From IMG/VR virus record IMGVR_UViG_3300042554_000768, positions 1-45,630 of that record: a DNA stretch of 45,630 nt; one strand, 5' to 3'. Positions within the stretch are counted from its first letter, which is position 1, and every line of letters starts with the position of its first letter. A program made the translations under genes and the position numbers. The stretch comes from a virus. The notes under the pieces were generated by a model. The model ran no database searches. It was not told where the DNA came from and saw only the letters and a list, made by a program, of their open reading frames with translations. This document shows, one piece after another, positions 12,008-39,214 of this stretch.

Positions 12008-14243
12008 CAATTTCATAGAAGATTACGCTGCCAAACTCGTTGATGGCGGCTACCGAATCATCCCCATCATGCCGGGAACCAAGCGACCGGGCCGCTACTT
12101 TGAAGGCGTCTGGGGCGAACTTCCGCGTTGGACCGAAATCAATGCCGCCAATACCCATATCGACATCTGGACTAAATGGCCCGGCTGTGGCATCGGCATC
12201 CTGACCGGGGAAGTCGTTGCTATAGATATTGACGTTCTGGATGAAGGCGTTGCCTTGAAAGTTGGCGAAGTCTTCCAGAAAAAGCTGGGGCAGACTGACC
12301 TGATTCGCATAGGGAAGTCCCCTAAAGCGCTTTATCTGTATCGAACACTAGAGCCTTTTAGCAAGATTTCGCTGCACCCCATCGAAGTCCTTGGGGTCGG
12401 CCAGCAGTTCGTTGCCTACGCTTACCACCCGGAAACCAACAAGCCCTACGCATGGCCGCTTGATGCGCCGCACGAGACGCCCGTTAATGCGTTGCCGATT
12501 GTGACCCGTCAGCAGGTACTAGAGGCTGCGGAGGAGGCTTATAACGCTTTACCGCCCAATCTGCGCCGCAAGCGACTGGTTAGCACGCTTGTGCCGGAAA
12601 AGGATCTCAAAACCTCCAATGATGGTCTCGTAGGCACTCTGGCTGCAGTCGAGGATGCCCTAAAGTACGTGCCCAACCCGGACCTCTCGTGGGATGACTG
12701 GAACCGCATCGGCATGGCCATCTATTGCGCCACCGAAGGCAAAGGATTGCATATTTTCGATCAGTGGTCCCGCGCCTCAGGCAAGTACAACAGCCTAGAA
12801 ACCAGTCAGCGCTGGGATCACTACAGCAAGTCGCCGCCTAGCAAAATCGGCGCAGGAACTCTCTACTACTACGCTCAGCAAAACGGCTGGGTGCCCCCGA
12901 ATCACATTGACCTAAACCCTGTTAAAGCGGTCAAGGTCGTTGATCTGACCAACCTAAAAGAGCCTAGAAAGACTCAAAAGAGCACTAGGGAAAACTTCCC
13001 GCACGAATGGTTCGACACCCCCTCTCTTGTAGGCAGGGTCACCCGTTGGATCATCAACACTGCTCAGCAGCCGCAGCCGACGTTTGCGCTTGCTAACACG
13101 CTTGTCATGTTCGGGGCCATCTTTGGGCGACGGTACGCCATGGCTGACCTCGGTACGCGCTGCAACCTGTTCGCAATCGCCGTGGCCAAACCGGGAGCAG
13201 GCAAGGACCATTCTCGGCAGCGGGTCAAGGAATTGATGATCGCGGCTAATCTTAACCAACTGATCTGCGGAGATCGCTTTAGCTCAGGCGTTGCTATCCT
13301 ACGCACCTTGTTCGACTTCCCCTCGCGCATCAGCCACCTTGACGAGATGGGTCTTTACCTTCAGAGCCTGACCGCTAAGAATGCCGCAAGTCACCAGCGA
13401 GACATCATCAAAACACTGCTCGAAATCTACTCCAGCAGTAACGGCATTTATCACGGGCAAGAATACGCTGATTCAACTAATCGTGTGCGCTTTGACATCA
13501 ATCAGCCAAACTTCAACTTCTTTGGCACTACAACCCCGCGCACGCTGATCCCGGCACTGAATCACGACATGATCGACAACGGAACCATGAGCCGTATATT
13601 GCTCATCCCGCCGTTTGAAGACTTTCCCGATGCGCGGGTGCCCGCTCGTATTCCGCCGCCGGAGGATCTGGTCAAGGACATCATCGACTCGTATGCGGTC
13701 GTTCCGCCTAATGCAGGCAACCTCAGCAACCAAGTGATGATCCCAAACGCATCCGTCGAGCCTATCCCGGTTGCTTGGGAAGAAAAGGCATTTGCAGAAT
13801 ACGAAAAGGTCAAGAGTTGGCAGATTCAGCAGTCGCGCAAGGAAGAACACCTCTGGGTCCGACTGTCTGAAATGACATTGAAAGTCGCAATGATTGAAGC
13901 CATCGCACGAGATCCAGTTAGCCCAATCGTAACCTTTGACATCTTTAAAATGGCTAGCGACTTCACCCGGTGGAGCTTCAACTACGCCGATGATCTGATG
14001 GTGCGCGAAGTGGCCGAAAACGAAACCGAAGCCTCGCACAAGCGTATCTACAACTTCATCCGCAAGCAGGGCGAAGCCGGAGCCAGCAGCACTCAACTCG
14101 CCAAGTCGCTCCAAGGCATGAAGGCCCGCGACCGGAACGAGATCCTGCAAACCCTTCTGGAAGCAGGCGACATCGTGGAAGAAGTCATCAAGTCGAATGG
14201 CCCCGGTCGAGATCGTCGGGTTTATCGCGTCAGGTCAAAGTAA
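12000..14243 (+). CDS. Primase-polymerase / helicase-like replication protein
   Basis: The start M-S-D-N-F is chosen because it overlaps the rusA stop and begins the domain. In the 747-residue protein residues 5-190 form a bifunctional primase-polymerase (AEP) domain with the metal site D-I-D (76-78). Residues 220-310 resemble the PriCT-2 domain. A C-terminal P-loop domain has G-A-G-K-D near 395 and H-L-D-E-M-G near 445, similar to DUF3987-type helicases. It probably primes and unwinds at the phage origin. No separate DNA polymerase is visible in the window. Confidence 0.88.
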   Translation: MSDNFIEDYAAKLVDGGYRIIPIMPGTKRPGRYFEGVWGELPRWTEINAANTHIDIWTKWPGCGIGILTGEVVAIDIDVLDEGVALKVGEVFQKKLGQTDLIRIGKSPKALYLYRTLEPFSKISLHPIEVLGVGQQFVAYAYHPETNKPYAWPLDAPHETPVNALPIVTRQQVLEAAEEAYNALPPNLRRKRLVSTLVPEKDLKTSNDGLVGTLAAVEDALKYVPNPDLSWDDWNRIGMAIYCATEGKGLHIFDQWSRASGKYNSLETSQRWDHYSKSPPSKIGAGTLYYYAQQNGWVPPNHIDLNPVKAVKVVDLTNLKEPRKTQKSTRENFPHEWFDTPSLVGRVTRWIINTAQQPQPTFALANTLVMFGAIFGRRYAMADLGTRCNLFAIAVAKPGAGKDHSRQRVKELMIAANLNQLICGDRFSSGVAILRTLFDFPSRISHLDEMGLYLQSLTAKNAASHQRDIIKTLLEIYSSSNGIYHGQEYADSTNRVRFDINQPNFNFFGTTTPRTLIPALNHDMIDNGTMSRILLIPPFEDFPDARVPARIPPPEDLVKDIIDSYAVVPPNAGNLSNQVMIPNASVEPIPVAWEEKAFAEYEKVKSWQIQQSRKEEHLWVRLSEMTLKVAMIEAIARDPVSPIVTFDIFKMASDFTRWSFNYADDLMVREVAENETEASHKRIYNFIRKQGEAGASSTQLAKSLQGMKARDRNEILQTLLEAGDIVEEVIKSNGPGRDRRVYRVRSK

Positions 14244-14288
14244 AAAAAATCCCCGGGGGAGAACAAGACTGTTCTACAAACCCCGGGG
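14242..14288 (-). terminator. Strong intrinsic terminator ending the 10-kb minus operon
   Basis: Reading on the minus strand, CCCCGGGG (14288-14281) pairs with CCCCGGGG (14258-14251) around an inner AGAACA/TGTTCT stem (14275-14260), followed by ATTTTTTTT. This fits a Rho-independent terminator for the minus genes that start near 24144. The stem could also slow + transcription leaving the PrimPol gene, but no T-tract follows on that side. The rest of 14289-14338 holds nothing recognisable. Confidence 0.75.
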
Positions 14289-14338
14289 CAACATCTCACG
14301 AAGGAGATGACAGGAGTAGAGATAGCACAGGGGGAATA

Positions 14339-14695
14339 CTACCCCCTTGGGTCCTGATTAGCAAGCCATGAGACATACCACATGGTTTTTCGGGCGTCCT
14401 GCTCAACAGCATCTTTATGCCCAAGCCGCCATAGATACGCTACTGCTGTGCCCTTCAGAAACCCCCGCCATTCATCGTCGGTCAGCATCGACCGAATAGC
14501 GTCAATACATTCAATCTTCCCCTTCTTGTAGTGACTCGGGTTCACTGGATCGGGACTTTTTGCGCTCTCGTCGTTTTGCATGACTGAGTTTTGCCATGCG
14601 TTGATAGTGCTCTCTAGATCGTCTTTTCTTAGCTCCTCTAGCAGCGCTTCCACCTCGACTGCCGATAGACGCAAGGTATCTTCGTATTTCATCAT
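14339..14695 (-). CDS. DUF3310 protein (T7 gp1.7-like domain)
   Basis: The 118-residue protein carries a C-terminal DUF3310 domain beginning at D-P-V-N-P-S-H-Y (about 49) with I-E-C-I-D-A-I and A-V-A-Y-L-W-R. This family includes T7 gp1.7, linked to nucleotide kinase activity and dideoxythymidine sensitivity. The start overlaps the upstream stop (TAATG) and has GAGGG as RBS. A shorter start at 14581 would keep the domain but has no clear RBS. The first half of the gene is overprinted by another plausible small gene (14511-14708). Confidence 0.82.
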   Translation of the reverse strand: MMKYEDTLRLSAVEVEALLEELRKDDLESTINAWQNSVMQNDESAKSPDPVNPSHYKKGKIECIDAIRSMLTDDEWRGFLKGTAVAYLWRLGHKDAVEQDARKTMWYVSWLANQDPRG

Positions 14696-14708
14696 TACCC
14701 TCTTTCAT
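14511..14708 (-). CDS. Overprinted small basic protein, G-G-rich phage family
   Basis: This 65-residue frame (ATG at 14708, GGAG 10 bases upstream) overlaps the N-terminal half of the DUF3310 gene in a different frame. It contains R-Y-L-A-S-I-G-S-R-G-G-S-A-A-R-G and R-E-H-Y-Q-R-M-A-K-L-S. This is the pattern of a very common family of short basic phage proteins, which makes a chance shadow frame unlikely. A TTG six bases further upstream is an alternative start. Function unknown; possibly nucleic-acid binding, given its charge. Confidence 0.55.
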   Translation of the reverse strand: MKEGNDEIRRYLASIGSRGGSAARGAKKRRSREHYQRMAKLSHAKRRERKKSRSSEPESLQEGED

Positions 14709-16077
14709 TTTCAATCAACTCCAATTTCTTTTGAACAGTATCAACTACGTTTGCCCACGACGAAACTACATTGTCTCTTTGGATAATCGTCGTGTTCGGA
14801 TACCACGCGCTTTGATCTCCAAACTTGTTGCCCCAGTACCAGAGCTTGTTGGAATCCATGAGCAAGACCCGTCGCCCAAGCGCCCCTGCCAAATGTACCG
14901 TGGTCGAACTGATGGCCACAAAGACATTGCACAAGGATAGCAAGGCGGCGACCCCCTCAATGTCGCTCCATAAGTCAACCGATGACGTAATGAGTTCTGT
15001 GCCATGCTCTGCATTAAACAACTCCGCATCTGACTTCTTGTACCCGTACTGAATGTTGACCACCTTGCGGTTCGCACCGCGCATAATCGGCAGCAACTCC
15101 TTCAAGTCAATGCTCTTGTGCGGGCCAATCTTCGGAGCGGTGCTGACCCATGACAGCCCCACCACAAAGTCATCAGGGGCAAGCCCCAACTCCGCCCTAA
15201 GAGCCTCTACGCGCTCAGGATCAGCCTTCAGGAACCCTTCTCCAACGTATTTGAAGATGTCATTTAAATCCTGAATGAAATGCGCACCTACTGATGCCAG
15301 CGGTAAATGCGAATCATGCTTATCCGATGCCACTTTCGTATTGTGCGATTCAAACTGAATCCCGGGCATCGACCGGCTGAAAATGGACACCAAACGCGGA
15401 TCAACTAAGGCCGTCACGCTGTCCACGCAATTGCGCAAAGCAGGAAGCAAAGAGCCGTAGATCACCTGATCCCCTAGCCCCTGCTCACTCCACACAAGTA
15501 CCGAGCGCAAACCAGACTCTCTAGTCCACTCAGGCTTGTCTGTGTGCAAAGGGCGGCTCTTGAATCTTGGGCTCTCCCACCGCTTGTTATACATCGGCCA
15601 GCCCGTCTTAAAGTCATTCCGCTGCAGTGCTAGCAACCCCAAAATCCAGTTTGCATTAGCATCGTTCGGCGCAATCTGGTTAGCTAACCTGAAGTTGGCT
15701 TCGGCTTGGTCCCAGCGCCTCATCTCCCAGTGCGCCGCCCCACGCTGAATCACCGCATGCAAATAACCCGGCTTCTTTTCTAACGCCTTTGTAAAATCCA
15801 AAATGGCCTCTTCATACCGCTGCAAGTCAGCCTTGCACATGCCACGGTTTACAAAGTCATCCGCGTCCTTGGCCCCGCGCCTTTCGGCAGCGTCGTAATA
15901 CTTAATTGCCTCCTCAAACTTACGCTGCATCTGAAGCAACCGGCCCTTAGCCCGATACGCAATCGGATCTTTCGGGTTTATGCTGATCGCTAGATTGCAC
16001 AAGTCCATGGCCTCGCCATACTTGCCAGCCTTGAAGGCAACCTCAATCTGCTTGATAACCTTAGCGTGCTTGCTCAT
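14695..16077 (-). CDS. TPR-repeat glycosyltransferase (GT-B type)
   Basis: The start M-S-K-H-A-K overlaps the upstream stop as ATGA, so it is preferred over a start 8 codons earlier. In the 460-residue protein residues 1-150 form about four TPR repeats, for example A-I-S-I-N-P-K-D-P-I-A-Y. Residues 185-455 form a GT-B-like domain with the signature E-Q-G-L-G-D-Q-V-I-Y (198-207). That signature is known from TPR-glycosyltransferases related to heptosyltransferases and O-GlcNAc transferases. It likely transfers a sugar onto a glycan or protein. It belongs to the six-gene glycan and methyl modification set in this operon. Confidence 0.85.
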   Translation of the reverse strand: MSKHAKVIKQIEVAFKAGKYGEAMDLCNLAISINPKDPIAYRAKGRLLQMQRKFEEAIKYYDAAERRGAKDADDFVNRGMCKADLQRYEEAILDFTKALEKKPGYLHAVIQRGAAHWEMRRWDQAEANFRLANQIAPNDANANWILGLLALQRNDFKTGWPMYNKRWESPRFKSRPLHTDKPEWTRESGLRSVLVWSEQGLGDQVIYGSLLPALRNCVDSVTALVDPRLVSIFSRSMPGIQFESHNTKVASDKHDSHLPLASVGAHFIQDLNDIFKYVGEGFLKADPERVEALRAELGLAPDDFVVGLSWVSTAPKIGPHKSIDLKELLPIMRGANRKVVNIQYGYKKSDAELFNAEHGTELITSSVDLWSDIEGVAALLSLCNVFVAISSTTVHLAGALGRRVLLMDSNKLWYWGNKFGDQSAWYPNTTIIQRDNVVSSWANVVDTVQKKLELIENERG

Positions 16078-16745
16078 ATCATCGACGCCATGGCCATCCA
16101 TTCCTTCCCGTACTCCACCTCAGTCCAGTCGTGGAACCACGGGCCACCGCGAGTCATATGAACCGCTATCGGGTTCGGACAGTCGTCCCGGCTATACCAT
16201 CCCTCAAGATAGTTATACGCAATCGGCAAGTGCCCAATTACATCGTCCGTCAGCCACTCAAACCTATGAAGATACGCTGGCGTAGCAGAATTAACTACCT
16301 CTGGCGTTAATCGCTTAACTTGTTCATGCTCACAGTTGATGAACATGAAACTGCTCCAATTCTTTCGAGGGTAAACGTGCTGAGGCTGGTTATTCATTTT
16401 GATCGTTTCGGTAGGCCGGTAGTCGTGCGGTACTACAAAGCAAGCTTTTGCCCCGTCGGCGTAGTCAAGCAGTCCCGCAATGTCCCCCCGGAAAAGAAAA
16501 TCGCAGTCGCAAAACAAGGCCCAGCCGGAATACCCCGCGAGATATGGAGTCAAAAACCTCGTGAGGCTGAACTCCGTGCTCGCAAGAGTGTCGGGTGGTC
16601 GCGTATAGACGCCCTGCTCTCGCAACTCGTGCTGCTTTATCGGAACGATGTCGAGCGGGATTGAGGAATACAACTCCATCGAATGCTTGGCAACCTGATA
16701 AGCCGCATCTTCCCGCCGGTCCCAGCCAATAAAAACCTTAAGCAT
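16074..16745 (-). CDS. GT-A fold glycosyltransferase
   Basis: The 223-residue protein begins with a short hydrophobic strand (M-L-K-V-F-I-G-W-D). It has the nucleotide-sugar metal site D-C-D (80-82) in A-L-F-C-D-C-D-F-L-F, then a W-S-S-F-M-F-I-N segment and a C-terminal H-M-T-R-G-G-P-W-F. This suits a small family-8-like or capsular-type GT-A transferase. It overlaps the downstream gene by 4 bases (ATGA) and the upstream transferase by 8. Donor and acceptor cannot be read from sequence. Confidence 0.8.
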   Translation of the reverse strand: MLKVFIGWDRREDAAYQVAKHSMELYSSIPLDIVPIKQHELREQGVYTRPPDTLASTEFSLTRFLTPYLAGYSGWALFCDCDFLFRGDIAGLLDYADGAKACFVVPHDYRPTETIKMNNQPQHVYPRKNWSSFMFINCEHEQVKRLTPEVVNSATPAYLHRFEWLTDDVIGHLPIAYNYLEGWYSRDDCPNPIAVHMTRGGPWFHDWTEVEYGKEWMAMASMI

Positions 16746-17409
16746 TTAAAAACGCCTCCTTGCGCCCAATGCCCTTATAGTGCAACACCCGGGGAACATG
16801 CCCCTCCGGTGCCCTGTCAGGCAAACAGGCATAGTCCAGCTCCTCGACTTCGCCTACCAACTCCGGGTACAGCATGTGCGAGTACACTTTCAGAGCCTCC
16901 TGATCGCCATACCACGAGCGCAAAGGCTTATCCATAAAGCCCATCAGAAGCGCCAAGTTGTTCCACTCTCGCCATGACTTCGTGACCGTAAAGCAACCCA
17001 AATAAGGGTACAAAGTCCCAAGCGGAATGCCGTCATAGTTCTTGAATACACCATTTCGCTGCTTGCCGTTAAAGCCCGCCTCCCGGTCAAACGACCGCCG
17101 ACAGAACACAATCTCGCGCTCCGCCAGAATCGCTGCCGGGTCAACAGGCAATACAAACAACATGTCCGTATCAATATACGCCGCTGGCTTCGTCAGCCTC
17201 GCCTCAGCAAACGCCTTCGTCCGCCAATACATAATCTGATCGTAGTTGCCCTGCGAATACCTGTAGTCATCTACACCCGGCACCTGCGGAGTCGCATCGT
17301 CCGTGCACATAATGACCTCAGCGTCCGGCATCACCGCCTTCAGCGACTGCACCATCTTCGTCGGGAAGCTGATGTCAGAACCAACGTGAAAGAAAACAAA
17401 ACGGCTCAT
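16738..17409 (-). CDS. GT-A fold glycosyltransferase-like protein
   Basis: This protein also has 223 residues. D-T-D at 80-82 (A-A-Y-I-D-T-D-M-L-F) sits at exactly the same position as the D-C-D of its downstream neighbour, and the overall strand order is similar. The pair probably descends from a duplication or shares one fold with long divergence. The C-terminal V-L-H-Y-K-G matches the usual acceptor-side His motif. Probably a nucleotide-sugar transferase; substrate unknown. Confidence 0.75.
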   Translation of the reverse strand: MSRFVFFHVGSDISFPTKMVQSLKAVMPDAEVIMCTDDATPQVPGVDDYRYSQGNYDQIMYWRTKAFAEARLTKPAAYIDTDMLFVLPVDPAAILAEREIVFCRRSFDREAGFNGKQRNGVFKNYDGIPLGTLYPYLGCFTVTKSWREWNNLALLMGFMDKPLRSWYGDQEALKVYSHMLYPELVGEVEELDYACLPDRAPEGHVPRVLHYKGIGRKEAFLNA

Positions 17410-17594
17410 TGCTCGTCCCTGATCTCAAGCATGGCTTCGGCTACGTTGTAAGCCTCTCTGGCCAAATCCCATCGGTTCTCATGCCGCCCCTCGTTGCCAG
17501 ACAAAATGGCTTGCATCGCCATGGCAGCAAAGTAGTCCCGCAAGTCCATGCCGGGAGTCGAGTCAGTCGGGAATGCCGGTTGTTCAAATTTCAT
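17406..17594 (-). CDS. Small conserved phage protein
   Basis: This 62-residue protein contains G-M-D-L-R-D-Y-F-A-A-M-A-M-Q and A-R-E-A-Y-N-V-A-E-A-M-L, a pattern I recognise from a widespread family of short phage proteins of unknown role. GGAG lies 8 bases before the ATG, and the stop overlaps the next gene as ATGA. Confidence 0.78.
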   Translation of the reverse strand: MKFEQPAFPTDSTPGMDLRDYFAAMAMQAILSGNEGRHENRWDLAREAYNVAEAMLEIRDEQ

Positions 17595-17898
17595 TTTGCT
17601 CTCCTAGCGGGTCTTTCAACATAACCAAATTAGCCGTAGCCGGAAGTTCACGATAATTGCCCAACAGCCCCATGCACTGCTCAATCGTTTGCTTTCTGAT
17701 TAAAACAGCAAGTTTACAAATGATCTGTGCATTGCTGCGCTGAGTAACCAATCCAGCACCGTCGTACTCAATGGCCGTCTTTTCTGCAAACTCCCAATCA
17801 AAAACCTCAAGATCTCCGTCTTGATTGATCTTGCACCAAACGTGATCATCACCTTTAGTGTCAGGAGGCGTAATAAAATCAAACTTATCTTCGCTCAT
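17584..17898 (-). CDS. Hypothetical protein
   Basis: This 104-residue acidic protein has no motif I recognise. AGGA lies upstream of the ATG, and it overlaps both neighbours by 11-14 bases. Its position in the tightly packed minus operon supports it as a real gene. Confidence 0.62.
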   Translation of the reverse strand: MSEDKFDFITPPDTKGDDHVWCKINQDGDLEVFDWEFAEKTAIEYDGAGLVTQRSNAQIICKLAVLIRKQTIEQCMGLLGNYRELPATANLVMLKDPLGEQNEI

Positions 17899-18595
17899 TT
17901 TTTTTCCTCAGAACCAACATTTGCTTGTAGTAATAAATCTCTTCAACACTAGACTCTGTATCAACAGACAACATCAAAAAGTCAATCAAGTTAATGACCT
18001 TAGACCTGTCGTTGACTACATTCTTGTCAAAGAACCTTTTGAATTGGTCCGTGTACATGGAGTTGTAAGTGCATCCCATGTCCTCAATCACATAGTAGCC
18101 ACCCGGCGAAACAGAAGGCCAGCAGTACTTGAACATGTCTACCATGTGCTCGGAAATGTGGCTTGCATCGTCAATGAACAAGTCAACAAACTCCTCTTTA
18201 AGTTTTGACTTGCACAGATCCTCAATGCGAATCTCCACGTTAGGCAACGACTTGCACAGATCTTTACACTCCTCGCGGATGTCGTAGCCGATTACAAATG
18301 AACGCGGCAAATAATGGCTCCACATGTGAAGTGATGCGCCACACGCTACGCCCGCCTCAACAACACGAAGAATGGCCTTGCGACGATCAGTGCCTTTTAA
18401 AAGATCGCAAATGATCCGCTCGTAGTGCTTTGTATAGTTGTGCTTGATCGAACCCTTATCGCTGCCAAACAAGTCAGCTAAGCCAGTTAGCGTCATCTCC
18501 TGAAGATTGACCTCGCCAGTCTGGGGGACATACTCCTCAGGCTTTACAGTGTCCAAGTAGCGGCGCACACCGCCTCGTGCTCTGGGGTCGTTCAC
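17885..18595 (-). CDS. Class I SAM-dependent methyltransferase (macrolide O-methyltransferase-like)
   Basis: The 236-residue protein has L-F-G-S-D-K-G plus H-x-Y-x-x-x-Y (about 42-58), typical of MycE-like sugar O-methyltransferases. A SAM-binding E-A-G-V-A-C-G-A-S (80-88) and G-Y-D-I (103-106) follow. Downstream are D-D-A-S-H and G-G-Y-Y-V-I-E-D, which carry metal and catalytic acids in this family. The start is GTG, overlapping the previous stop as GTGA. It probably methylates a sugar hydroxyl made available by the neighbouring transferases; this is inference. Confidence 0.8.
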   Translation of the reverse strand: MNDPRARGGVRRYLDTVKPEEYVPQTGEVNLQEMTLTGLADLFGSDKGSIKHNYTKHYERIICDLLKGTDRRKAILRVVEAGVACGASLHMWSHYLPRSFVIGYDIREECKDLCKSLPNVEIRIEDLCKSKLKEEFVDLFIDDASHISEHMVDMFKYCWPSVSPGGYYVIEDMGCTYNSMYTDQFKRFFDKNVVNDRSKVINLIDFLMLSVDTESSVEEIYYYKQMLVLRKKNERR

Positions 18596-19368
18596 AGCTT
18601 CACCATCATTCCCTGCCCTGTAGGCAGTTCCAAAATACGCTCTGGCTTGTTAGCCAGAAACTTCTGATGAACCAAGGCCGAATCGCGATACCGCGCAAAC
18701 CCGTAATCATCAAATACAACAATCCCGCCCTTTGTCATGCGCTCGTAAATCTCAGGCATCACATGCGCCTCGGCCTCGGCACTGTTCAGGTCAATATGGG
18801 CAAAGCAAATCTCATCCGGCAAATGCTTCGGAATCGTATCCATAACGCTGCCTGCGGTAATGCATGGCTCAAATTCCGCCATCCGCTCCGCCACCAACTT
18901 TTCCAAATTAGGGCCGTGCAGCACCTTCTTGTGATCGCCCGGCGGGGCATCGAAATAGTCAAACAAATAAACAGACTTGTACTTGATCAGGTCTTTATTG
19001 TATGCACAAAAAACGTGTGTACTACGCGCTTCATAACAGCCCAAATCCACAACGTCACCGGCAACATGCGCAGCCTGAGAAAGCGCCCAGCACAAATTGT
19101 GTATGCGCCACGACCTAGCCTGCAAAATGTGATCGTATTCATAAACTTTCATGGCATCCGCAAAAGCCTTGTCTTCTAAAAAGAACAAGTTACGAAACCA
19201 TACAGCTAAATCATCGTGCATCGTTGCCGTCGTGGCCGGGTCGGTAATCTTCAAATGCCCCGCCATCGAAGTCAGCAACCCGCGGAATTCTTCTATGCTC
19301 TCTTTATCAGCGAACAGACTTTTATAGTCCTTGTTAATCAAAAGACATGTTGGAACCATCAGTTTCAT
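18592..19368 (-). CDS. TylF/MycF family O-methyltransferase
   Basis: The 258-residue protein has the TylF/MycF layout: V-V-D-L-G-C-Y-E-A-R-S-T (106-117) for SAM binding, F-A-H-I-D-L-N (189-195) and G-G-I-V-V-F-D-D-Y (214-222) for the metal-dependent active site. Family members methylate hydroxyls on macrolide sugars or other glycans. It lies directly upstream of a second O-methyltransferase and overlaps it by 4 bases. The likely target is a surface glycan; the exact substrate is unknown. Confidence 0.85.
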   Translation of the reverse strand: MKLMVPTCLLINKDYKSLFADKESIEEFRGLLTSMAGHLKITDPATTATMHDDLAVWFRNLFFLEDKAFADAMKVYEYDHILQARSWRIHNLCWALSQAAHVAGDVVDLGCYEARSTHVFCAYNKDLIKYKSVYLFDYFDAPPGDHKKVLHGPNLEKLVAERMAEFEPCITAGSVMDTIPKHLPDEICFAHIDLNSAEAEAHVMPEIYERMTKGGIVVFDDYGFARYRDSALVHQKFLANKPERILELPTGQGMMVKL

Positions 19369-19553
19369 ATCTCAAACTCCGACTTAAACAAGTCACGGTC
19401 TTGAATAGAGGCGTCTATGCGCCTTCGCAAATAAACAATCTCAGCTTGCAGGGCCAGCAGTTCTCTTGAAATCAAGTCCGCCTCAGTCCACAACCCCTGC
19501 TCGCGGATCTTGGCTAGTGCTAAGAAAACATCGTCGCCCCACAGGTTTTTCAT
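19365..19553 (-). CDS. Small hypothetical coiled-coil protein
   Basis: The start M-K-N-L-W-G overlaps the upstream stop as ATGA, which decides it over an ATG three codons earlier. The 62-residue protein is mostly one helix (A-L-Q-A-E-I-V-Y-L-R-R-R-I), a likely coiled coil. Function unknown. Confidence 0.65.
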   Translation of the reverse strand: MKNLWGDDVFLALAKIREQGLWTEADLISRELLALQAEIVYLRRRIDASIQDRDLFKSEFEI

Positions 19554-19741
19554 GGCTCCCACCCTTCTCCTTTTTGGTCAAATTCAAACCACTCGCAAAC
19601 TTCAAGCATTACAGCCTCATTGATCTGCTTTTCGATCTGCTCTTTTGTCGGCGCATCGTCGTGTTTGTATGCCCGACGCAACCCCCGTGTCACACCGGCC
19701 TCGACGCACATCTGAATCAGCTTGTAAGTGTCAGGTTTCAT
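19550..19741 (-). CDS. Small conserved phage protein
   Basis: This 63-residue protein has D-T-Y-K-L-I-Q-M-C-V-E-x-G and A-V-M-L-E-V-C-E-W-F, a pattern I know from many phage genomes as a conserved protein of unknown function. It overlaps both neighbours by 4 bases. Confidence 0.78.
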   Translation of the reverse strand: MKPDTYKLIQMCVEAGVTRGLRRAYKHDDAPTKEQIEKQINEAVMLEVCEWFEFDQKGEGWEP

Positions 19742-20052
19742 ACCTCACCCCTCGCCCGAATCGCGGCGGCAATATCGGAGCCAAACACCAGTTCCATATC
19801 AAATACGCCTTCAACATATTTCGCACACGCCTCCCGCTCGGCTTTCACCGCAGCGTCAAGCAACCCACAAAACTGCGTCGTCCTTTGCCCTTTGGCGCAT
19901 TGTCGCCAGCCGTCGCGGGTCATCTGCTGCTCTTTCTCGGCGGCAACGAGGGCCGCGAAAGTTTCTAATCGCTGCACCTCCACCGCGTGTAAAAGTGAAT
20001 ACTCTGTCCATCCAGCCTCTCGCGCCATGCGGATAATGTCGTCTTGGGTCAT
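19738..20052 (-). CDS. Conserved phage protein, unknown function
   Basis: The start M-T-Q-D-D-I-I-R is chosen because it overlaps the stop of a tiny upstream gene (CGATGA). The longer frame reading is the shadow of that gene. The 104-residue protein has A-R-E-A-G-W at its start and E-R-E-A-C-A-K-Y-V-E plus A-A-A-I-R-A-R-G later. These blocks recur in a common family of variable phage proteins. Confidence 0.75.
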   Translation of the reverse strand: MTQDDIIRMAREAGWTEYSLLHAVEVQRLETFAALVAAEKEQQMTRDGWRQCAKGQRTTQFCGLLDAAVKAEREACAKYVEGVFDMELVFGSDIAAAIRARGEV

Positions 20053-20183
20053 CGCAGCCACTCCATGACCGTCACGGCCAGCCAGATCACAAGCCCGACC
20101 GGCACTCCAATCACACCGGCCAGCAACAGCAGCACAAACAGCAATTGCCGCAACGTCGGCGGCGGCATTCCTCCGACTGGCAT
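20049..20183 (-). CDS. 44-residue two-segment membrane protein (microgene)
   Basis: GGAGGG lies about 6 bases before the ATG. The 44-residue protein has two hydrophobic stretches: L-R-Q-L-L-F-V-L-L-L-L-A-G-V and V-P-V-G-L-V-I-W-L-A-V-T-V. The stop overlaps the next ATG (CGATGA). Such a hydrophobic hairpin could be a holin-like or other small membrane protein, but nothing proves lysis. It is too short for ordinary gene finders, yet its RBS and overlaps are convincing. Confidence 0.7.
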   Translation of the reverse strand: MPVGGMPPPTLRQLLFVLLLLAGVIGVPVGLVIWLAVTVMEWLR

Positions 20184-20186
20184 ATA

Positions 20187-20393
20187 TCACCCTCCGTAAT
20201 ACTTCAGAACAATTTTGAACGCATCAATATGACGCTGCATCTCAGCAACGTCCTTAGCCTTATCAGAATGGAATATGCAAACACCCTTGCCGATCTTGCG
20301 GGCCTTCAAATCACGCCGTAATGACCCAAGAGCGTTTTGCAAATCACTGCGCACAATTGCGTCCAGCCCCTGCGAACATACTTCTAATTTCAT
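20187..20393 (-). CDS. Small conserved phage protein
   Basis: This 68-residue protein has E-V-C-S-Q-G-L-D-A-I near the start, a basic middle (L-R-R-D-L-K-A-R-K) and R-H-I-D-A-F-K-I-V-L-K-Y-Y-G at the end, matching a frequent phage family of unknown role. Its ATG overlaps the stop of the 57-residue gene upstream. Confidence 0.78.
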   Translation of the reverse strand: MKLEVCSQGLDAIVRSDLQNALGSLRRDLKARKIGKGVCIFHSDKAKDVAEMQRHIDAFKIVLKYYGG

Positions 20394-20563
20394 GTCATAC
20401 GCCCCACAAAAAAGCCCACCGTGAAAACCACTACTGACAGCGCAATCTCCGCCACCAGCACCTTATCGCCCAACTCCTCACGGTCGCGCTCCATCTGCTT
20501 GATCTTCTCCTCAAGCCCGCGAATCTCAGCCCGTAGCCGATCTTGTGAATACTCCAGTTTCAC
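20390..20563 (-). CDS. 57-residue coiled-coil plus membrane-anchor protein (microgene)
   Basis: GTG start at 20563, with GGAGG 9 bases upstream; TGA overlaps the next ATG. Residues 5-35 form a charged coiled coil (L-R-A-E-I-R-G-L-E-E-K-I-K-Q-M-E). Residues 37-53 form one transmembrane helix (V-A-E-I-A-L-S-V-V-V-F-T-V-G-F-F-V). The topology is C-tail anchored. It could act in the envelope together with the 44-residue membrane protein two genes downstream. No family assigned. Confidence 0.68.
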   Translation of the reverse strand: MKLEYSQDRLRAEIRGLEEKIKQMERDREELGDKVLVAEIALSVVVFTVGFFVGRMT

Positions 20564-20649
20564 CAGTAGTACCCTCCGGTTCGCCTGCGACTACACGCCC
20601 AGTTCGGCGGCGGTACATGATCCCAGTCGCGCCAAAACTTAACGCGCAT
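20560..20649 (-). CDS. 29-residue microgene, Trp/Arg-rich
   Basis: ATG at 20649 overlaps the 3' end of the 63-residue gene, with GGAAGG 5 bases upstream; the stop TGA overlaps the GTG start of the next gene. The peptide begins M-R-V-K-F-W-R-D-W-D, a start I have seen in short conserved phage proteins. The perfect start-stop nesting supports it, but the length makes it uncertain. Confidence 0.45.
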   Translation of the reverse strand: MRVKFWRDWDHVPPPNWACSRRRTGGYYW

Positions 20650-20830
20650 CCTCGCCTTCCAACTCTGATACCAGTTCATTTGGATCTGTCCTCGCTAATT
20701 CCATTTCGAGTGATCGTATTTCGCGCTGCTTTGCGTAAATCTGCTCTAACAGATATTCCGCCTTTGTCTTTCGCCAGCGCCCTGAAGCCACCTTGCCGTC
20801 TGAGTGATCGTCTTGCTTTATCAATGCCAT
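20639..20830 (-). CDS. Small coiled-coil protein
   Basis: This 63-residue protein has GGGAG about 7 bases before the ATG and a charged helix (Y-L-L-E-Q-I-Y-A-K-Q-R-E-I-R-S-L-E-M). It lies almost wholly inside the 3' part of the longer upstream frame (20676-21041) in a different frame. Its composition looks like the genuine protein of the two in that interval. Function unknown. Confidence 0.6.
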   Translation of the reverse strand: MALIKQDDHSDGKVASGRWRKTKAEYLLEQIYAKQREIRSLEMELARTDPNELVSELEGEDAR

Positions 20831-21041
20831 CGCATAACTCCCTTATAAGAGTCTGTATCTGCCTCCGCTGCCGATCCCGCCGCCGCTTCTCCAACCAACG
20901 CTTCGTGTCCTCTATCGTCGCCTTGCGAGTAGGGCCAGACTTGCGCTGGTATGAACACCGGCCAGCATGCTCAACCCCACATTCCGGGCAACGGCGCAAC
21001 ACCTTCGGCGCTAATCCATACGCTGTGCGCCAGTCACTCAT
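20676..21041 (-). CDS. Basic protein with zinc-binding Cys motif; long 3' overlap
   Basis: The start M-S-D-W-R-T follows a strong GGAGG and overlaps the upstream stop. In the 121-residue protein, residues 10-35 hold R-R-C-P-E-C-G-V-E-H-A-G-R-C, a likely zinc site, followed by a basic helix. The C-terminal about 50 residues, across the 63-residue gene, are Arg-rich and low in structure. They may simply be the consequence of a late stop. Function unknown; possibly nucleic-acid binding. Confidence 0.6.
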   Translation of the reverse strand: MSDWRTAYGLAPKVLRRCPECGVEHAGRCSYQRKSGPTRKATIEDTKRWLEKRRRDRQRRQIQTLIRELCDGIDKARRSLRRQGGFRALAKDKGGISVRADLRKAARNTITRNGISEDRSK

Positions 21042-21216
21042 CCATCTCCTCCTCAATGCAGCGGCTGAAGTCCTCATCACCACACTCCGGACAATGCTGC
21101 GTGACACACACCACCTCACTCGACACCGCGCTGCCGTAAAAAATCAGATCCGTGTGCTCCTGAATGTACGGCTCGCTAAATTCATGTTGGCATTCGCCAC
21201 ACTTAAACCATGTCAT
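21034..21216 (-). CDS. Small zinc-ribbon-like protein
   Basis: This 60-residue protein has C-G-E-C near residue 6 and C-P-E-C-G near residue 42, the two knuckles of a zinc ribbon, with an acidic tail. It overlaps both neighbours by 4-8 bases. Such proteins are common in phages; the target is unknown. Confidence 0.72.
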   Translation of the reverse strand: MTWFKCGECQHEFSEPYIQEHTDLIFYGSAVSSEVVCVTQHCPECGDEDFSRCIEEEMDE

Positions 21217-21380
21217 CGCATCACCTTATCCAAAAATAAACTAAAGGCTTTTAAGTACTGCTCGCCCTCGACCACAACACGCGCCACTTCCTGCTGCGCC
21301 ACTTGCTCCAGCTTCTGCTGTACCTCCGCATACTCGCGGTAGCCACGATCCAGTTCCTGTGATTCCATCTCGTTGTCCAT
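21213..21380 (-). CDS. Small helical hypothetical protein
   Basis: The start M-D-N-E-M-E is supported by AGGAG about 8 bases upstream; an earlier start would lack an RBS. The 55-residue protein is helical and charged (E-V-Q-Q-K-L-E-Q-V-A-Q-Q-E). It is the first minus gene below a divergent control region. Function unknown. Confidence 0.62.
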   Translation of the reverse strand: MDNEMESQELDRGYREYAEVQQKLEQVAQQEVARVVVEGEQYLKAFSLFLDKVMR

Positions 21381-21418
21381 GTGCTCTCTCCTGTAGAGTG
21401 CTATTGAAAACAACCGGC

Positions 21419-21447
21419 TTGCTCAAGTTACACCTAGCCGATATAAG
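21419..21447 (+). promoter_or_regulatory. Predicted promoter containing a CGATATAAG element
   Basis: TTGCTC (21419-21424), 17 bases, TATAAG (21442-21447) could serve the + gene at 21509. The -10 box lies inside CGATATAAGA (21439-21448), the same sequence that repeats around the terS start. The -35 box is weak (3/6). Confidence 0.38.
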
Positions 21448-21508
21448 AAACAACCCCCTTGCGTAAAAAAGTTGCCTGTGCCCGCTGCCCTGCGGTATCG
21501 TTGCCAAT

Positions 21509-21871
21509 ATGAAAGCCGCAGATTTTGTCGGAATGCTCTTTTTGGCCCGTGATGTTGCCCACAGCGTTCATCTCAATACGCGCTCGTATGCCGTTCATAA
21601 GGCCACACAAAAGTTCTACGAAAGCCTGCCAGACCTAGCCGATTCATTCGCAGAAGCCTATCAAGGTCGCCACGGGTTGATCGGCCCCATCTCGCTCATG
21701 TCCGCTGCCAAAAACAATGACCTCGTGGAATTTCTGGAAGATCAACTCGACCAGATCCGCGCCAACCGCTATGAGTTCTGTGACCGCGAAGAAACCGCCA
21801 TCCAGAACATCATTGACGAAATAGTCGGTCATTACTTAAGCACGATATACAAACTGCGCTTCTTGTCGTAA
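21509..21871 (+). CDS. DUF5856-like protein (Dps/ferritin-like helical fold)
   Basis: This 120-residue helical protein is the only + gene inside the minus block. It has F-V-G-M-L-F-L-A-R-D-V-A-H-S-x-H-L, A-F/S-x-x-D-S-F-A-E-A-Y-Q-G-R-H-G-L-I-G and a C-terminal Y-L-S-T-I-Y-K-L-R-F. I recognise this as a very conserved phage/plasmid family (DUF5856), thought to resemble Dps-like four-helix bundles. Its His/Glu residues could bind metal. It ends one base before the convergent methyltransferase gene. Role unknown. Confidence 0.82.
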   Translation: MKAADFVGMLFLARDVAHSVHLNTRSYAVHKATQKFYESLPDLADSFAEAYQGRHGLIGPISLMSAAKNNDLVEFLEDQLDQIRANRYEFCDREETAIQNIIDEIVGHYLSTIYKLRFLS

Positions 21872-22510
21872 TCACTGCGCCGTAAAGCGCAACAACGTAT
21901 TCGGCACCAACATCGCCGTCTTACGTAGCAGCTTGGGATATATGAGCCCATAAAACGATGGCCCCAACCCGGCTAGCAGATTCATGGCATTCGCTACGCC
22001 CTTCTCGATGCCCACAAAATCGTCCAGCACAAACACCGTCCGGTCGTGCATCAGCTTCTTAATCAACGGTAGATCATCCGCTGCTAGTCGCCCGTCAACG
22101 TAAAACAGATCTACCTTTGTGTTAGTCGATATAAGACTCTCGAACATGCTCGTCGAAGTCTGGCACGGGTACTGATGCACTAACACATTAGGGCTTAGTT
22201 GCGGCAACTGAATGTCGTTGCTCACATCGCAAGTGTGAATCACCCCGCCGCGCATCGCAGACGCCATCGCAGCCGTAGAACGCCCGATAAACGTCCCCAC
22301 CTCAGCCACCGTAGCCGGGTTGAAGTGCCCGATAATCTCCTGCAGGTCGACAACATCGTCACGGTCAAGCGATCCCGTGTTGTGCTGCGCCCCCTCGCGC
22401 AACCCGTCCAGCTCATCAAACAGCCCACCCAGCCCTTTTGCCGTCGTGCTTCTGATCCGTCGCCAGACCATTTCGCTCAGCATCGCACGGTCAATCGTAA
22501 TCGGGTTCAT
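21872..22510 (-). CDS. Class I SAM-dependent methyltransferase-like protein
   Basis: The start M-N-P-I-T-I is set by GGAGG just upstream, and it overlaps the stop of a 30-residue gene. In the 212-residue protein the SAM motif V-A-E-V-G-T-F-I-G-R-S-T lies at about 68-79, and V-D-L-F-Y-V-D-G with V-F-V-L-D-D-F forms the later strands, as in O-methyltransferases with a metal site. It is the third methyltransferase in the operon, about 2.5 kb upstream of the others. Substrate unknown. Confidence 0.75.
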   Translation of the reverse strand: MNPITIDRAMLSEMVWRRIRSTTAKGLGGLFDELDGLREGAQHNTGSLDRDDVVDLQEIIGHFNPATVAEVGTFIGRSTAAMASAMRGGVIHTCDVSNDIQLPQLSPNVLVHQYPCQTSTSMFESLISTNTKVDLFYVDGRLAADDLPLIKKLMHDRTVFVLDDFVGIEKGVANAMNLLAGLGPSFYGLIYPKLLRKTAMLVPNTLLRFTAQ

Positions 22511-22599
22511 AACCACCTCCGAAATATAAGAATGCCCACCGCAAAAATCCCCAGCCATAAGGCCACCAATTCAGCAATCGCAACGTCGGTCGGAGTCAT
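22507..22599 (-). CDS. 30-residue single-pass membrane peptide (microgene)
   Basis: ATG at 22599 overlaps the upstream stop (ATGA), GAGG lies about 7 bases upstream, and its own TGA overlaps the methyltransferase ATG. The 30-residue peptide has one hydrophobic helix (L-V-A-L-W-L-G-I-F-A-V-G-I-L-I-F) ending in R-R-W. Overlaps on both sides support real translation. Function unknown. Confidence 0.6.
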   Translation of the reverse strand: MTPTDVAIAELVALWLGIFAVGILIFRRWL

Positions 22600-22868
22600 G
22601 CGGCATCCTCGCCCATAACGTCCCAGCGGTGATACTCATCCACCTCGTCGTCGGCCTCCTCGACCCAGTACTCGTCCTCGCTGAAACTCAGGGTCACCGG
22701 ACACCCGCTCAACGAATCGCTCGCCCTGATTTCAATGTGCGGCGGACAAGATTCCTCGGCCTTATCAGCCCATGCGTTCAGCTCAACCGAATTCATCGGC
22801 GGATATTTGAAATTCACCCGCAGCCAGTCCTGCAACCGCTGCATGCCGCGCTCGTTCAATGTGTTCAT
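22596..22868 (-). CDS. Acidic hypothetical protein
   Basis: This 90-residue protein has GGGAG 7 bases before the ATG and an acidic, Trp-containing C-terminal half (E-D-E-Y-W-V-E-E-A-D-D-E-V-D-E-Y). No known motif. It follows the intrinsic terminator at 22882-22909, so its expression may depend on read-through. Confidence 0.68.
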   Translation of the reverse strand: MNTLNERGMQRLQDWLRVNFKYPPMNSVELNAWADKAEESCPPHIEIRASDSLSGCPVTLSFSEDEYWVEEADDEVDEYHRWDVMGEDAA

Positions 22869-22881
22869 AGTGTGCTCCCGT

Positions 22882-22909
22882 AAAAAATGGGCGGTTAGCA
22901 GTCCCGCCC
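22882..22909 (-). terminator. Intrinsic terminator or attenuator inside the minus operon
   Basis: On the minus strand GGGCGG (22909-22904) pairs with CCGCCC (22894-22889) around a 9-base loop, followed by ATTTTTT (22888-22882). It lies in the 49-base gap between two minus genes and could partly stop transcription, setting lower expression for the downstream genes. Confidence 0.65.
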
Positions 22910-22917
22910 CAGTTGGC

Positions 22918-23328
22918 TTACGAATTAACTGCTTTGAGTGCGCTATAAAAGTTTTCGCTGTTGCGCTCCTCGCGTGTTTTGTGTCGCGGATAGTCCCCCG
23001 GCACCGTCACCCAATACCCGCCGAAACATTTGAATTCCATTTGAGGCCCAGATACGTCCACCAACACCACGCCACCGTCGCCGTGGCTGTCCGTCTCCGT
23101 CAGTACACTGTCCGCGTTCCAAATGCCGAAAGACAGGTTGCCCTCGTTGCCGTTGATACACTCCTGCACCAGACGCGCCGCCGTATATTGGACGTCACCG
23201 CCCCGGCCCTTCATACGCTCGCGCAGCCGGTCGCAAATGTCCCGCACCTCATCGCCGGACCAGTGGCAATAGATGACTGGGGAAAACTCCTCACCGCGTA
23301 CTACCTGAAACAATACTCGCTCGCCCAT
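22918..23328 (-). CDS. Hypothetical protein
   Basis: This 136-residue protein mixes beta strands and helices (V-L-F-Q-V-V-R-G-E-E-F-S-P-V-I-Y and G-Y-W-V-T-V-P-G). CGGAG lies upstream of the ATG. It resembles conserved phage hypothetical proteins but I cannot name a family. Confidence 0.68.
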   Translation of the reverse strand: MGERVLFQVVRGEEFSPVIYCHWSGDEVRDICDRLRERMKGRGGDVQYTAARLVQECINGNEGNLSFGIWNADSVLTETDSHGDGGVVLVDVSGPQMEFKCFGGYWVTVPGDYPRHKTREERNSENFYSALKAVNS

Positions 23329-23358
23329 GTTTGCTATCTCCGTGTTATGTGTGATTGA

Positions 23359-23742
23359 TTAAACGGCAATTGCTGCGGCAATCTTTCGCGAGGCTACCCG
23401 CGCCGCTTCAAGTGCCTCTAGCAACAAGTCATCTGCGCATTCAGACAAATAATCGTTATCTGAGCCGGGAACATTGCAGTCGATACCCCAAAGACTTGCG
23501 GCATGCTCAGAAACGCATACGTCATCAACAAAAACGGACAACACGACACCAACGAATGACCATTCGTCGCGGTTCCAAGACTCGACCTGCTCAGGAAAGT
23601 AACAATCAAAATCCGTGGGTCGCGTCTCAGTGTCGTGATGAACAACTGCCGCAATGGTGAACGGGCCAACTTCCACAGTGCGTCGATCCCCTATGCAAAC
23701 AAATGAGTCAAAATTGGGAAACTTAGGAAGTGCTTGTGTCAT
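23359..23742 (-). CDS. Acidic hypothetical protein, first gene behind a predicted promoter
   Basis: The start M-T-Q-A-L-P is supported by AGGAG 9 bases upstream; the frame is open further, but the extra codons fall in the shared leader. The 127-residue protein is acidic, Cys-containing, and ends in an Ala-rich helix. No known motif. The predicted promoter and leader directly upstream suggest early, fairly strong expression. Confidence 0.68.
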   Translation of the reverse strand: MTQALPKFPNFDSFVCIGDRRTVEVGPFTIAAVVHHDTETRPTDFDCYFPEQVESWNRDEWSFVGVVLSVFVDDVCVSEHAASLWGIDCNVPGSDNDYLSECADDLLLEALEAARVASRKIAAAIAV

Positions 23743-23755
23743 GGTCGTTTGCTCC

Positions 23756-23776
23756 TTTTGCGTGTTTAGCGTGTTC
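23756..23776 (-). repeat. Shared 21-nt 5' leader, copy 2
   Basis: Second copy of the leader at 11164-11184 (19/21 identical). It lies between the predicted promoter at 23790-23817 and the AGGAG of the gene starting at 23742. Confidence 0.6.
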
Positions 23777-23789
23777 AATCGATAGGGCC

Positions 23790-23817
23790 ATCATACGCAA
23801 GCGGGTTGTGTAATCAA
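23790..23817 (-). promoter_or_regulatory. Predicted sigma70-type promoter
   Basis: On the minus strand TTGATT (23817-23812), 16 bases, TATGAT (23795-23790). The -10 is 5/6 and the -35 is 4/6. It would start near 23783 and give a transcript beginning just before the shared leader. Confidence 0.5.
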
Positions 23818-23838
23818 GCCCATCGAATTAAGCGACCA

Positions 23839-24144
23839 CTAGGCGGTTGCTTCCAGTTCCTTGATCCGTTGCCGAAGGCGGTCAATCTCAGTTTGCAATA
23901 CCCTATTTTGAGTCGCGAGCTGAGACACCGGATCCACATAAGCCATCGAAACCAAATACAACCCGCGACCCGCCTTCTCTGCCTCGCCGCGCAGTACATA
24001 CCGATCCAAACATTGGCGGCATGACCCGCGATCACCCGTCACCCTATTGCCAAACATCTCTATAGCTTTGGCGTACACCTGCTTTACCGTTGCCGGTTCG
24101 CTGAATGTCGCAAGCGCCTCAAAGTACACCGATACATTCGCCAT
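23839..24144 (-). CDS. Winged-helix protein with C-terminal leucine-zipper, probable regulator
   Basis: In the 101-residue protein residues 15-65 look like a winged helix: A-T-V-K-Q-V-Y-A-K-A, a recognition-type helix S-C-R-Q-C-L-D-R-Y, and a wing A-G-R-G-L-Y-L-V. Residues 75-98 form a regular Leu/Ile heptad coiled coil (L-A-T-Q-N-R-V-L-Q-T-E-I-D-R-L-R-Q-R-I), suggesting a dimer. GAGGG precedes the ATG. Directly upstream lie a 12-bp inverted repeat and repeated TCACTTA units, good operator candidates. Autoregulation is inferred. Confidence 0.7.
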   Translation of the reverse strand: MANVSVYFEALATFSEPATVKQVYAKAIEMFGNRVTGDRGSCRQCLDRYVLRGEAEKAGRGLYLVSMAYVDPVSQLATQNRVLQTEIDRLRQRIKELEATA

Positions 24145-25718: not shown

Positions 25719-26756
25719 CTAGGCCGCTATAGCGTATTGGCTGGCGAGCGCCTTTAGCGCCTTTTGCTTGAGCGCATCACCTGCCCCCAATTGAGTGCTA
25801 GCAAACCGCGCACCGCGTGCGCCATCGTTTTCCGTGTCGCGAACGGTAGCGGCATGGTCTACGTAGTACGTCACGGCATTTAATAGGCCGTAGGCCGTGC
25901 CGTCCGCACTGGCAAGCTGTGAGCCCGGCGCCTTTTTGTAGGCCGTCACAAGGGCGCGCAGATTGTTTTCGGCCTTAGTGCTCACAATTTTCGAGCCCTT
26001 GCCGTCCACCTTCCCAATATCCGCCGGGTTGATGTCAAGCAAACCAGCCAAAAAGTCTAGCGCGGCTTTGTTGTCAACCTTAATTTTTGCCAGTGCGTGC
26101 CACTGTTCGCTAGTAATGCGATGCTGTTCACCCAAAAGGCCGAAAGCCCGCGCCAGTCCCGCGCTATCAAACTGCGTCGAATGCTTATTCTTGTAACCAC
26201 GTTCTAATGCGTCACGGTCAACCATCCGCATGGTGTTGGCGCACACTTGGCGCACAGTAGTGGCCACTAAGTCGGTAGCACGCGAGCCATCGAAACTAGT
26301 TTGCAGTCGAATGTAACTGTCCACCTGATCGTTGCCGGGCATCAGGAATCCATAGTCCGGCCCAAGTTTGGCCATACACCACACAATGCGCCCGCCACGC
26401 ACCGCGCCTGCGGTTTCAATTGACAATCCATTGTCGCTGAGAAAGTCTGCGAAAAATTCCATAATCTCGCGGGGCTGATGGACGTTATAGCGATTTTCAG
26501 AGACCACACCTAAGGCCGCGCCCGTGTCGCTACGGTAGAGCACGGATTGATTGTCAAAATTCATGGTCCGCCCGTCGCTGGTGTTATAGATGACGGGGGC
26601 GCGGTTCGCGTTCCAATTGAGCCCGGCCTTTTGCGTGATGGTGTCGATGCTATCGCCGGGTTCGATGGATTGTCCCAAGCCGTGCCATGCTGAGGCCGCA
26701 CCGCCTACCGCCGCGAATGCATAGATGCCGGTGCTGTTGTCGATTTCATGTGCCAT
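25719..26756 (-). CDS. DUF932 domain phage/plasmid-like protein
   Basis: The 345-residue protein matches the DUF932 phage/plasmid family (TIGR03299-like): W-H-G-L-G near 24-28, Y-R-S-D-T-G-A-A-L-G-V-V-S-E-N-R-Y near 73-89 and V-C-A-N-T-M near 169-174. Its molecular function is not established; members are widespread in phages and plasmids. GAGGGT precedes the ATG. It is preceded by a predicted promoter (26811-26840) and a perfect 16-bp palindrome (26789-26804). It forms an opposed cassette between terS and terL. Confidence 0.88.
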   Translation of the reverse strand: MAHEIDNSTGIYAFAAVGGAASAWHGLGQSIEPGDSIDTITQKAGLNWNANRAPVIYNTSDGRTMNFDNQSVLYRSDTGAALGVVSENRYNVHQPREIMEFFADFLSDNGLSIETAGAVRGGRIVWCMAKLGPDYGFLMPGNDQVDSYIRLQTSFDGSRATDLVATTVRQVCANTMRMVDRDALERGYKNKHSTQFDSAGLARAFGLLGEQHRITSEQWHALAKIKVDNKAALDFLAGLLDINPADIGKVDGKGSKIVSTKAENNLRALVTAYKKAPGSQLASADGTAYGLLNAVTYYVDHAATVRDTENDGARGARFASTQLGAGDALKQKALKALASQYAIAA

Positions 26757-37742: not shown

Positions 37743-37745
37743 ACC

Positions 37746-39212: not shown

Positions 39213-39214
39213 TC

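Follow-up and report, generated by a model that had tools for sequence, protein, structure and literature searches.

Phage virion glycosylation has been documented in a few actinobacteriophages, and the gtrABC seroconversion operons of temperate phages are phage-encoded genes for glycan modification. In cluster O mycobacteriophages, three glycosyltransferases (GTs) and an O-methyltransferase modify the capsid and the tail tube, as far as the work of Freeman et al. 2023 is described where PMC11600133 cites it. In the algal virus PBCV-1 the soluble, early-expressed proteins A064R (two GTs and a 2-O-methyltransferase) and A061L (a 3-O-methyltransferase) finish the capsid glycan by methylation at O-2 and then at O-3 (PMC9614988). 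A061L acts only once the 2-O-methyl group is in place. Among cellular systems, the tetratricopeptide repeats (TPRs) of Caulobacter FlmG bind the flagellin acceptor (PMC7591256), and MycE followed by MycF methylates O-2 and O-3, respectively, of one sugar (PMC9539859). Here we report on a set of GT and O-methyltransferase (MT) genes in the IMG/VR record IMGVR_UViG_3300042554_000768, which derives from a freshwater phage; the window that we analysed is the whole record, 45,630 bases in length. The gene set is best explained as a soluble, cytoplasmic module that would build a short glycan and then cap it by O-methylation.

An earlier note on this DNA had described six enzyme genes in a single minus-strand operon, i.e. 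a TPR-GT-B transferase, two GT-A transferases with a D-x-D motif at the same residue, and three class I methyltransferases, two of them resembling macrolide-sugar O-methyltransferases. All six open reading frames (ORFs) are present at this place on the minus strand, together with a gene for a small protein of 104 amino acids (aa) that was absent from the gene set of that note. The module comprises:

TPR-GT, 14695..16101, minus strand: 468 aa, N-terminal TPRs and a C-terminal GT-B domain, GT9-like
GT-A1, 16074..16745, minus strand: 223 aa, GT8-like GT-A glycosyltransferase with D80-C-D82
GT-A2, 16738..17409, minus strand: 223 aa, GT-A glycosyltransferase with a GT6/GT8-like fold and D80-T-D82
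Small conserved module protein, 17584..17898, minus strand: 104 aa
MT1, 17885..18595, minus strand: 236 aa, MycE/TylE-like metal-type sugar O-methyltransferase
MT2, 18592..19368, minus strand: 258 aa, TylF/MycF-like sugar O-methyltransferase
MT3, 21872..22558, minus strand: 228 aa, COMT-like class I O-methyltransferase in a separate transcription unit

As in the cluster O mycobacteriophages, tandem GTs and an O-methyltransferase occur together in one phage, and MT1 homologs are present in mycobacteriophages, that of McProf directly adjoining a GT. The present set differs from the cluster O system, as far as the account cited above goes, in its composition (a TPR-GT with a GT9-like domain, a pair of GT-A enzymes, three methyltransferases) and in belonging to a genome of podophage type, and its action on the virion is a prediction. 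With PBCV-1 it shares virus-encoded soluble GTs, a predicted 2-O-methyltransferase and a separate, predicted 3-O-methyltransferase; PBCV-1 is, however, an algal virus, its fusions are of the type GT-GT-MT whereas those found here are TPR-GT-B-GT-A, and the likeness comes from a structure match (A064R-D1) and not from sequence. FlmG resembles TPR-GT in its N-terminal TPRs, its C-terminal GT-B domain and its cytoplasmic location, a likeness of architecture, but FlmG is cellular and acts on flagellin with pseudaminic acid while the phage GT domain looks GT9-like. The methyltransferases compare with the MycE/MycF and TylE/TylF pairs, since MycE is the match of MT1 and TylF/MycF that of MT2, and the metal and base residues coincide in the alignments; unlike MycE, MT1 lacks the N-terminal domain and its substrate is presumably a glycan and not a macrolide. 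Finally, in contrast to gtrABC, no GtrA-like flippase, multi-membrane Gtr protein or integrase was found here.

The TPRs of TPR-GT are certain (Pfam TPR, 1.9e-18). Against Pfam Glyco_transf_9 the protein scores 0.068 (12.9 bits), below the cut-off of 22, and we therefore name it GT9-like and not GT9. Its GT-B fold, as well as the fold of GT-A2, was read from the predicted structure of a fused homolog (L202; mean predicted local distance difference test, pLDDT, 90), in which the GT-B domain (model residues 151-428) lies nearest to GT9 (3tov, Z 17.9), with further matches to heptosyltransferase II (HepII, 1psw, Z 17.6) and TibC (Z 15.9). TibC is a GT9 transferase that acts on protein. The combination of TPRs and a GT-B domain is shared with the protein O-glycosyltransferases OGT and SPY: Foldseek lists XcOGT and SPY with alignments that span the TPRs, which we count in favour of a protein acceptor, although the best single-domain matches are GT9.

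GT-A1 matches phrog_28018 (1.1e-54), and has no Pfam family at E 0.1 and no sequence match in the PDB; as it belongs to no sequence profile of that family it is called GT8-like and not GT8. The AlphaFold2 model of GT-A1 (pLDDT 80, from a shallow alignment and with one of the five models poor) superimposes on LgtC with Z 17.4 and 3.0 Å over 202 residues, followed by GlyE (Z 16.7) and glycogenin (approximately 15.8), with LARGE1, UGGT and WbbM close behind. For GT-A2 the sequence gave no match in Pfam, PHROGs or named phages and no credible match in the PDB; the GT-A2 domain of the L202 model matches BoGT6a (Z 17.4), glycogenin (16.2) and PBCV-1 A064R-D1 (2p73, Z 15.7). The D-x-D motif occupies residues 80-82 in both proteins, Asp80 and Asp82 being invariant in the 26 alignment rows of GT-A1 and across the alignment of GT-A2 relatives. 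The predicted models support a GT-A fold for both 223-aa proteins and a GT-B fold for TPR-GT.

The Pfam family Methyltransf_24 is matched above the cut-off by MT2 and MT3 and below it by MT1. Profile searches of the PDB relate MT1 to MycE (3ssm, 2.4e-15) and to demethylmacrocin O-MT (8ia9, 1.8e-14), and its D-D-A-S-H and E-D motifs align with those of both enzymes and are, with the exception of the Ala, invariant across the alignment of relatives; the 236 residues of MT1 cover MycE residues 191-333 only and not the two-domain architecture of approximately 400 aa. MT2 matches Pfam TylF (2.5e-7, 30.7 bits, cut-off 23), CalS11 (0.0011) and, weakly, MycF (0.1), and its invariant Asp193 and Asp220-221 align with the D..DD residues of MycF, which we take to bind metal. 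MT3 matches Methyltransf_24 (1.1e-6) and PDB entry 3tr6 (3e-6), and its E-V-G-T..G, Asp155 and Asp179-180 are invariant. All three are assigned as metal-type class I O-methyltransferases, and by analogy with MycE and MycF we would expect MT1 to act at O-2 and MT2 at O-3, the latter perhaps only once MT1 has acted. The enzyme classes of the earlier note are thus borne out for the GTs and MTs alike.

Scans of IMG/VR with the six proteins yielded 207 loci, which fall into 80 contig groups by shared 400-mers, many of them truncated contigs; TPR-GT has 26 and GT-A1 has 299 viral relatives in the protein scans. The usual order, with conserved strand, is MT3, MT1 or MT2, the small protein, GT-A2, GT-A1 and TPR-GT; L165, L175 and L182 are arranged differently, with GT-A2 on the strand opposite to MT1 and MT3. 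The five-part set was found as separate genes in 19 contig groups and with a TPR-GT-GT-A2 fusion in 7 more, and this fusion is present in 13 of the 80 groups overall. The 104-aa protein is encoded in 52 of the 80, most often between an MT and GT-A2, with which it forms a single fused protein in L208. GT-A1 was detected in all 16 large relatives tested (58-91% identity). Many independent contigs repeat both the gene content and the gene order, which places this enzyme set beyond chance. That they form a joint set for glycan transfer and O-methylation, as had been proposed, is well supported by the conserved order, the gene content and the fusions in several phages; single genes scattered in the relatives, the observation which the earlier note held would speak against it, were not found.

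Our data also support, at the level of gene content, that MT1 and MT2 have repeatedly been exchanged between relatives. For the METHYLTRANSFERASE exchange, the contig groups in which the slot is visible carry MT1 only (17), MT2 only (5), neither (7) or both (1), where the MT1-only labels are less certain than the MT2-only ones because a short contig may end before an MT2 that lies upstream of MT1. MT1 and MT2 are together in the window, and also in the contig of L055 and L189. Mapped on the tree of GT-A1 plus GT-A2 (31 rows), the MT1/MT2 state requires at least four changes, and the starred branches of the tree alone force four changes for MT2. One might imagine a fixed GT core making one glycan, on which the exchange of MT1 (2-O) and MT2 (3-O) would switch between mono- and di-O-methyl caps and so create serotype-like glycan types on particles or infected cells; we regard this as rather unlikely.

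The analysis shows which genes are present and in what conserved order, which of them are fused, how the proteins are predicted to fold, which motifs persist and that MT1 and MT2 are exchanged; the order of reactions, the sugars, the regiochemistry, the acceptor and the benefit in the following scheme are inferred. TPR-GT would bind the acceptor, probably a protein, via its TPRs, and its GT9-like domain would add the first sugar. GT-A2, which is fused to TPR-GT in some phages, and GT-A1 would extend the chain with nucleotide sugars of the host; none of the window proteins that were scanned looked like an enzyme of nucleotide-sugar synthesis, and the donors would hence be host-derived. O-methylation of the sugar or sugars would be the last step, carried out by MT3 together with MT1 (expected position O-2) and/or MT2 (expected position O-3). 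The likeliest acceptor would be a virion protein, the methyl-capped glycan altering how the particle is recognised or adsorbs. We tentatively consider the virion the single most likely target, at a little short of an even chance, and we favour it because of the precedents, the TPR architecture, the lack of membrane or carrier-lipid proteins and the position of homologs in some phages. Specifically, hydropathy gave no clear sign of a membrane segment in the module proteins. The capsid gene of podovirus ctDrO704 is separated from a tail gene by genes for a TPR protein, an FkbM methyltransferase and a GT-A1 homolog; CcrColossus encodes its GT-A1 homolog a few genes downstream of a tail protein; and in McProf the GT that adjoins the MT1 homolog precedes the terminase genes by a few genes. 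When the GT-A1 homolog of ctDrO704 served as query for a viral scan, nothing was returned.

Four points weigh against a virion target. First, the neighbours of the module in the window, as in groups like L156-L161, are early and DNA-metabolism genes and not structural genes; as the early enzymes of PBCV-1 build a capsid glycan, we do not take the early placement as an argument against the virion. Second, cellular GT-A1 homologs (53-59% identity) often adjoin genes for the lipopolysaccharide (LPS) core. Third, GT9 and GT8 folds are typical of LPS enzymes. Fourth, a scan with the window capsid protein retrieved 13 contigs (40-59 kb) with a capsid protein sharing 83-87% identity with the query, and GT-A1, TPR-GT and MT3 are lacking in all of them. 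The module is therefore accessory and not needed by this capsid type. Two distant relatives, G013 and G011, have structural genes and the module in common with the window but not its replication genes, and the idea to which they gave rise, that module and structural genes move together, was rejected because of the same 13 contigs.

Several of these points can be read in favour of a role on the host surface, where GT-A1, GT-A2 and the GT9-like domain would extend a nascent LPS core or another surface glycan at the cytoplasmic face and the methyl caps would alter receptors and exclude rival phages; we hold this to be possible, on the doubtful side, and the chief rival of the virion reading. The cellular GT-A1 homologs inspected come from the top 80 among more than 500 matching stretches; going by what the titles reveal, these 80 are alphaproteobacterial, and several of them adjoin genes for WaaA/KdtA, a SIS/CBS isomerase (KdsD-like), GT25, GT29-like and GT4 enzymes, while the GT-A1 homolog of cyanophage S-SCSM2R lies near KdsA and KdsB. 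Moreover, LgtC, WbbM and heptosyltransferase II are among the best folds, the module is on the early side of the window and the capsid type does not predict its presence. Against this, the TPR domain suggests a protein acceptor, the module has no flippase-like or multi-membrane protein, and the ctDrO704 and CcrColossus homologs are placed with virion genes. In addition, no integrase was found in the 16 records examined (the window and 15 relatives), so there is no evident prolonged lysogenic benefit. Lysogenic seroconversion was rejected on the same grounds, i.e. no integrase in these records and a module without a flippase-like protein.

The TPRs also bear on whether a host protein, e.g. flagellin or pilin, is glycosylated and methylated in an FlmG-like manner such that phage access or motility changes, which we think improbable. 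The TPR plus GT-B architecture is that of FlmG (PMC7591256), a TPR-GT gene lies beside GT-A1 in the bacterial loci L242, L286 and L229, and in L274 a TylF-like methyltransferase lies beside TPR-GT; but among the neighbours of the module no gene for flagellin or pilin was noted. The alphaproteobacterial locus L274 (45-3724), in which GT-A1 overlaps upstream of the TPR-GT and TylF-family genes, is a cellular counterpart of the phage set. A prophage-like Roseobacter locus (L265:6682-9462) has GT-A1, TPR-GT and a sulfotransferase next to one another, with phage tail- and lysis-like genes downstream.

That the module lies near DNA-metabolism genes in several groups, and in L208 and L136 beside other candidate base-modification genes, would fit glycosylation of the phage DNA at a hydroxymethylated base as in T4. 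We judge this very unlikely indeed: the thymidylate-synthase-type family PF00303 is absent from the window and the 15 relatives (the control was positive in 9 of 14 genomes), known DNA glucosylation has no place for sugar O-methyltransferases, and there is no DNA glucosyltransferase among the best fold matches listed. T4-type DNA glycosylation was rejected on the absence of that gene. Among the other ALTERNATIVES, lysogenic seroconversion and T4-type DNA glucosylation are accordingly both disfavoured, as neither an integrase nor a thymidylate-synthase-type gene was found in the 16 records. As for the two relatives, in L208 (5946-7410 and 12224-12751) an adenylosuccinate-synthetase-like gene, a dATP/dGTP pyrophosphohydrolase and an HD phosphohydrolase flank the glycan module, making it a candidate 2-aminoadenine (Z) genome phage, and in L136 (8575-9222) a QueE-like radical-SAM gene upstream of GT-A2 hints at 7-deazaguanine DNA modification. 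In Pelagibacter phage Mosig (L211:5949-11783) two methyltransferases, GT-A1, a putative sulfotransferase and another GT are clustered near ribonucleotide reductase and RuvC genes.

Returning to the layout of the window, three further genes lie within or next to the module:

DUF3310 gene, 14339..14695, minus strand: neighbour and last gene of the overlapping run, Pfam DUF3310 8.8e-14
62-aa phage protein within the run, 17406..17594, minus strand: phrog_2201 1.4e-12, unknown function, probably without connection to glycan chemistry
DUF5856 gene, 21509..21871, plus strand: outside the module, Pfam 4.2e-22, phrog_858 2.9e-26

Overlap among the minus-strand ORFs spans 14339 to approximately 20563, which holds five of the six enzymes and fits their co-translation. 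The single operon proposed earlier consequently stands for these five but not for MT3, which is split off as a separate, convergent unit since the plus-strand DUF5856 gene intervenes, ending one base short of the MT3 stop. The phrog_858 annotation of the DUF5856 gene is 'starvation-inducible transcriptional regulator', and related genes occupy the same place in several relatives. Beyond the DUF3310 gene there is a terminator-like site on the minus strand (14262-14250). As a promoter scan gave fewer sigma-70-like sites than expected by chance, no promoter is claimed. Megablast of positions 14000-24000 against named phages gave no match. The record is classed as linear, and the window may therefore be a fragment.

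Elsewhere in the window, the structural proteins include the terminase, portal and capsid protein. A GroES-like (Cpn10) gene (31668-32066), 88-90% identical in close relatives, lies between the portal and capsid genes, and a homing-endonuclease-like gene (35206-36141) directly follows the major capsid gene; a copy of the latter (79% identical) is present in the relative G004 and in none of the other relatives compared. After the capsid region follows a gene for an 89-aa protein (36224-36493; 30% Ser+Thr) of a small variable family starting MASTxFSGPV, possibly a head or tail decoration protein. We dropped it as a module-specific acceptor because several phages without the module have a similar gene behind their capsid gene. 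A block of tail/fibre-like genes (36697-41232), including a gene (37746-38186) for a fibre protein of the podophage GP4 gp80 family, is mostly missing in the closest relatives and present in the module-negative G017 (gp80 75% identical), and looks like a swapped fibre cassette. On the minus strand, a DUF932 gene (25719-26756; 6e-42) is absent from the compared near relatives with long contigs.

GT-A1 homologs are present in cultured phages of Caulobacter (CcrColossus, gp129), Stenotrophomonas (DLP6), Synechococcus and Pelagibacter (Mosig), and a conserved module of GTs and O-methyltransferases across uncultured aquatic phages suggests that phage-made methylated glycans are commoner than recognised. 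The caps are predicted to be 2-O-, 3-O- or 2,3-di-O-methyl, depending on which methyltransferases are present.

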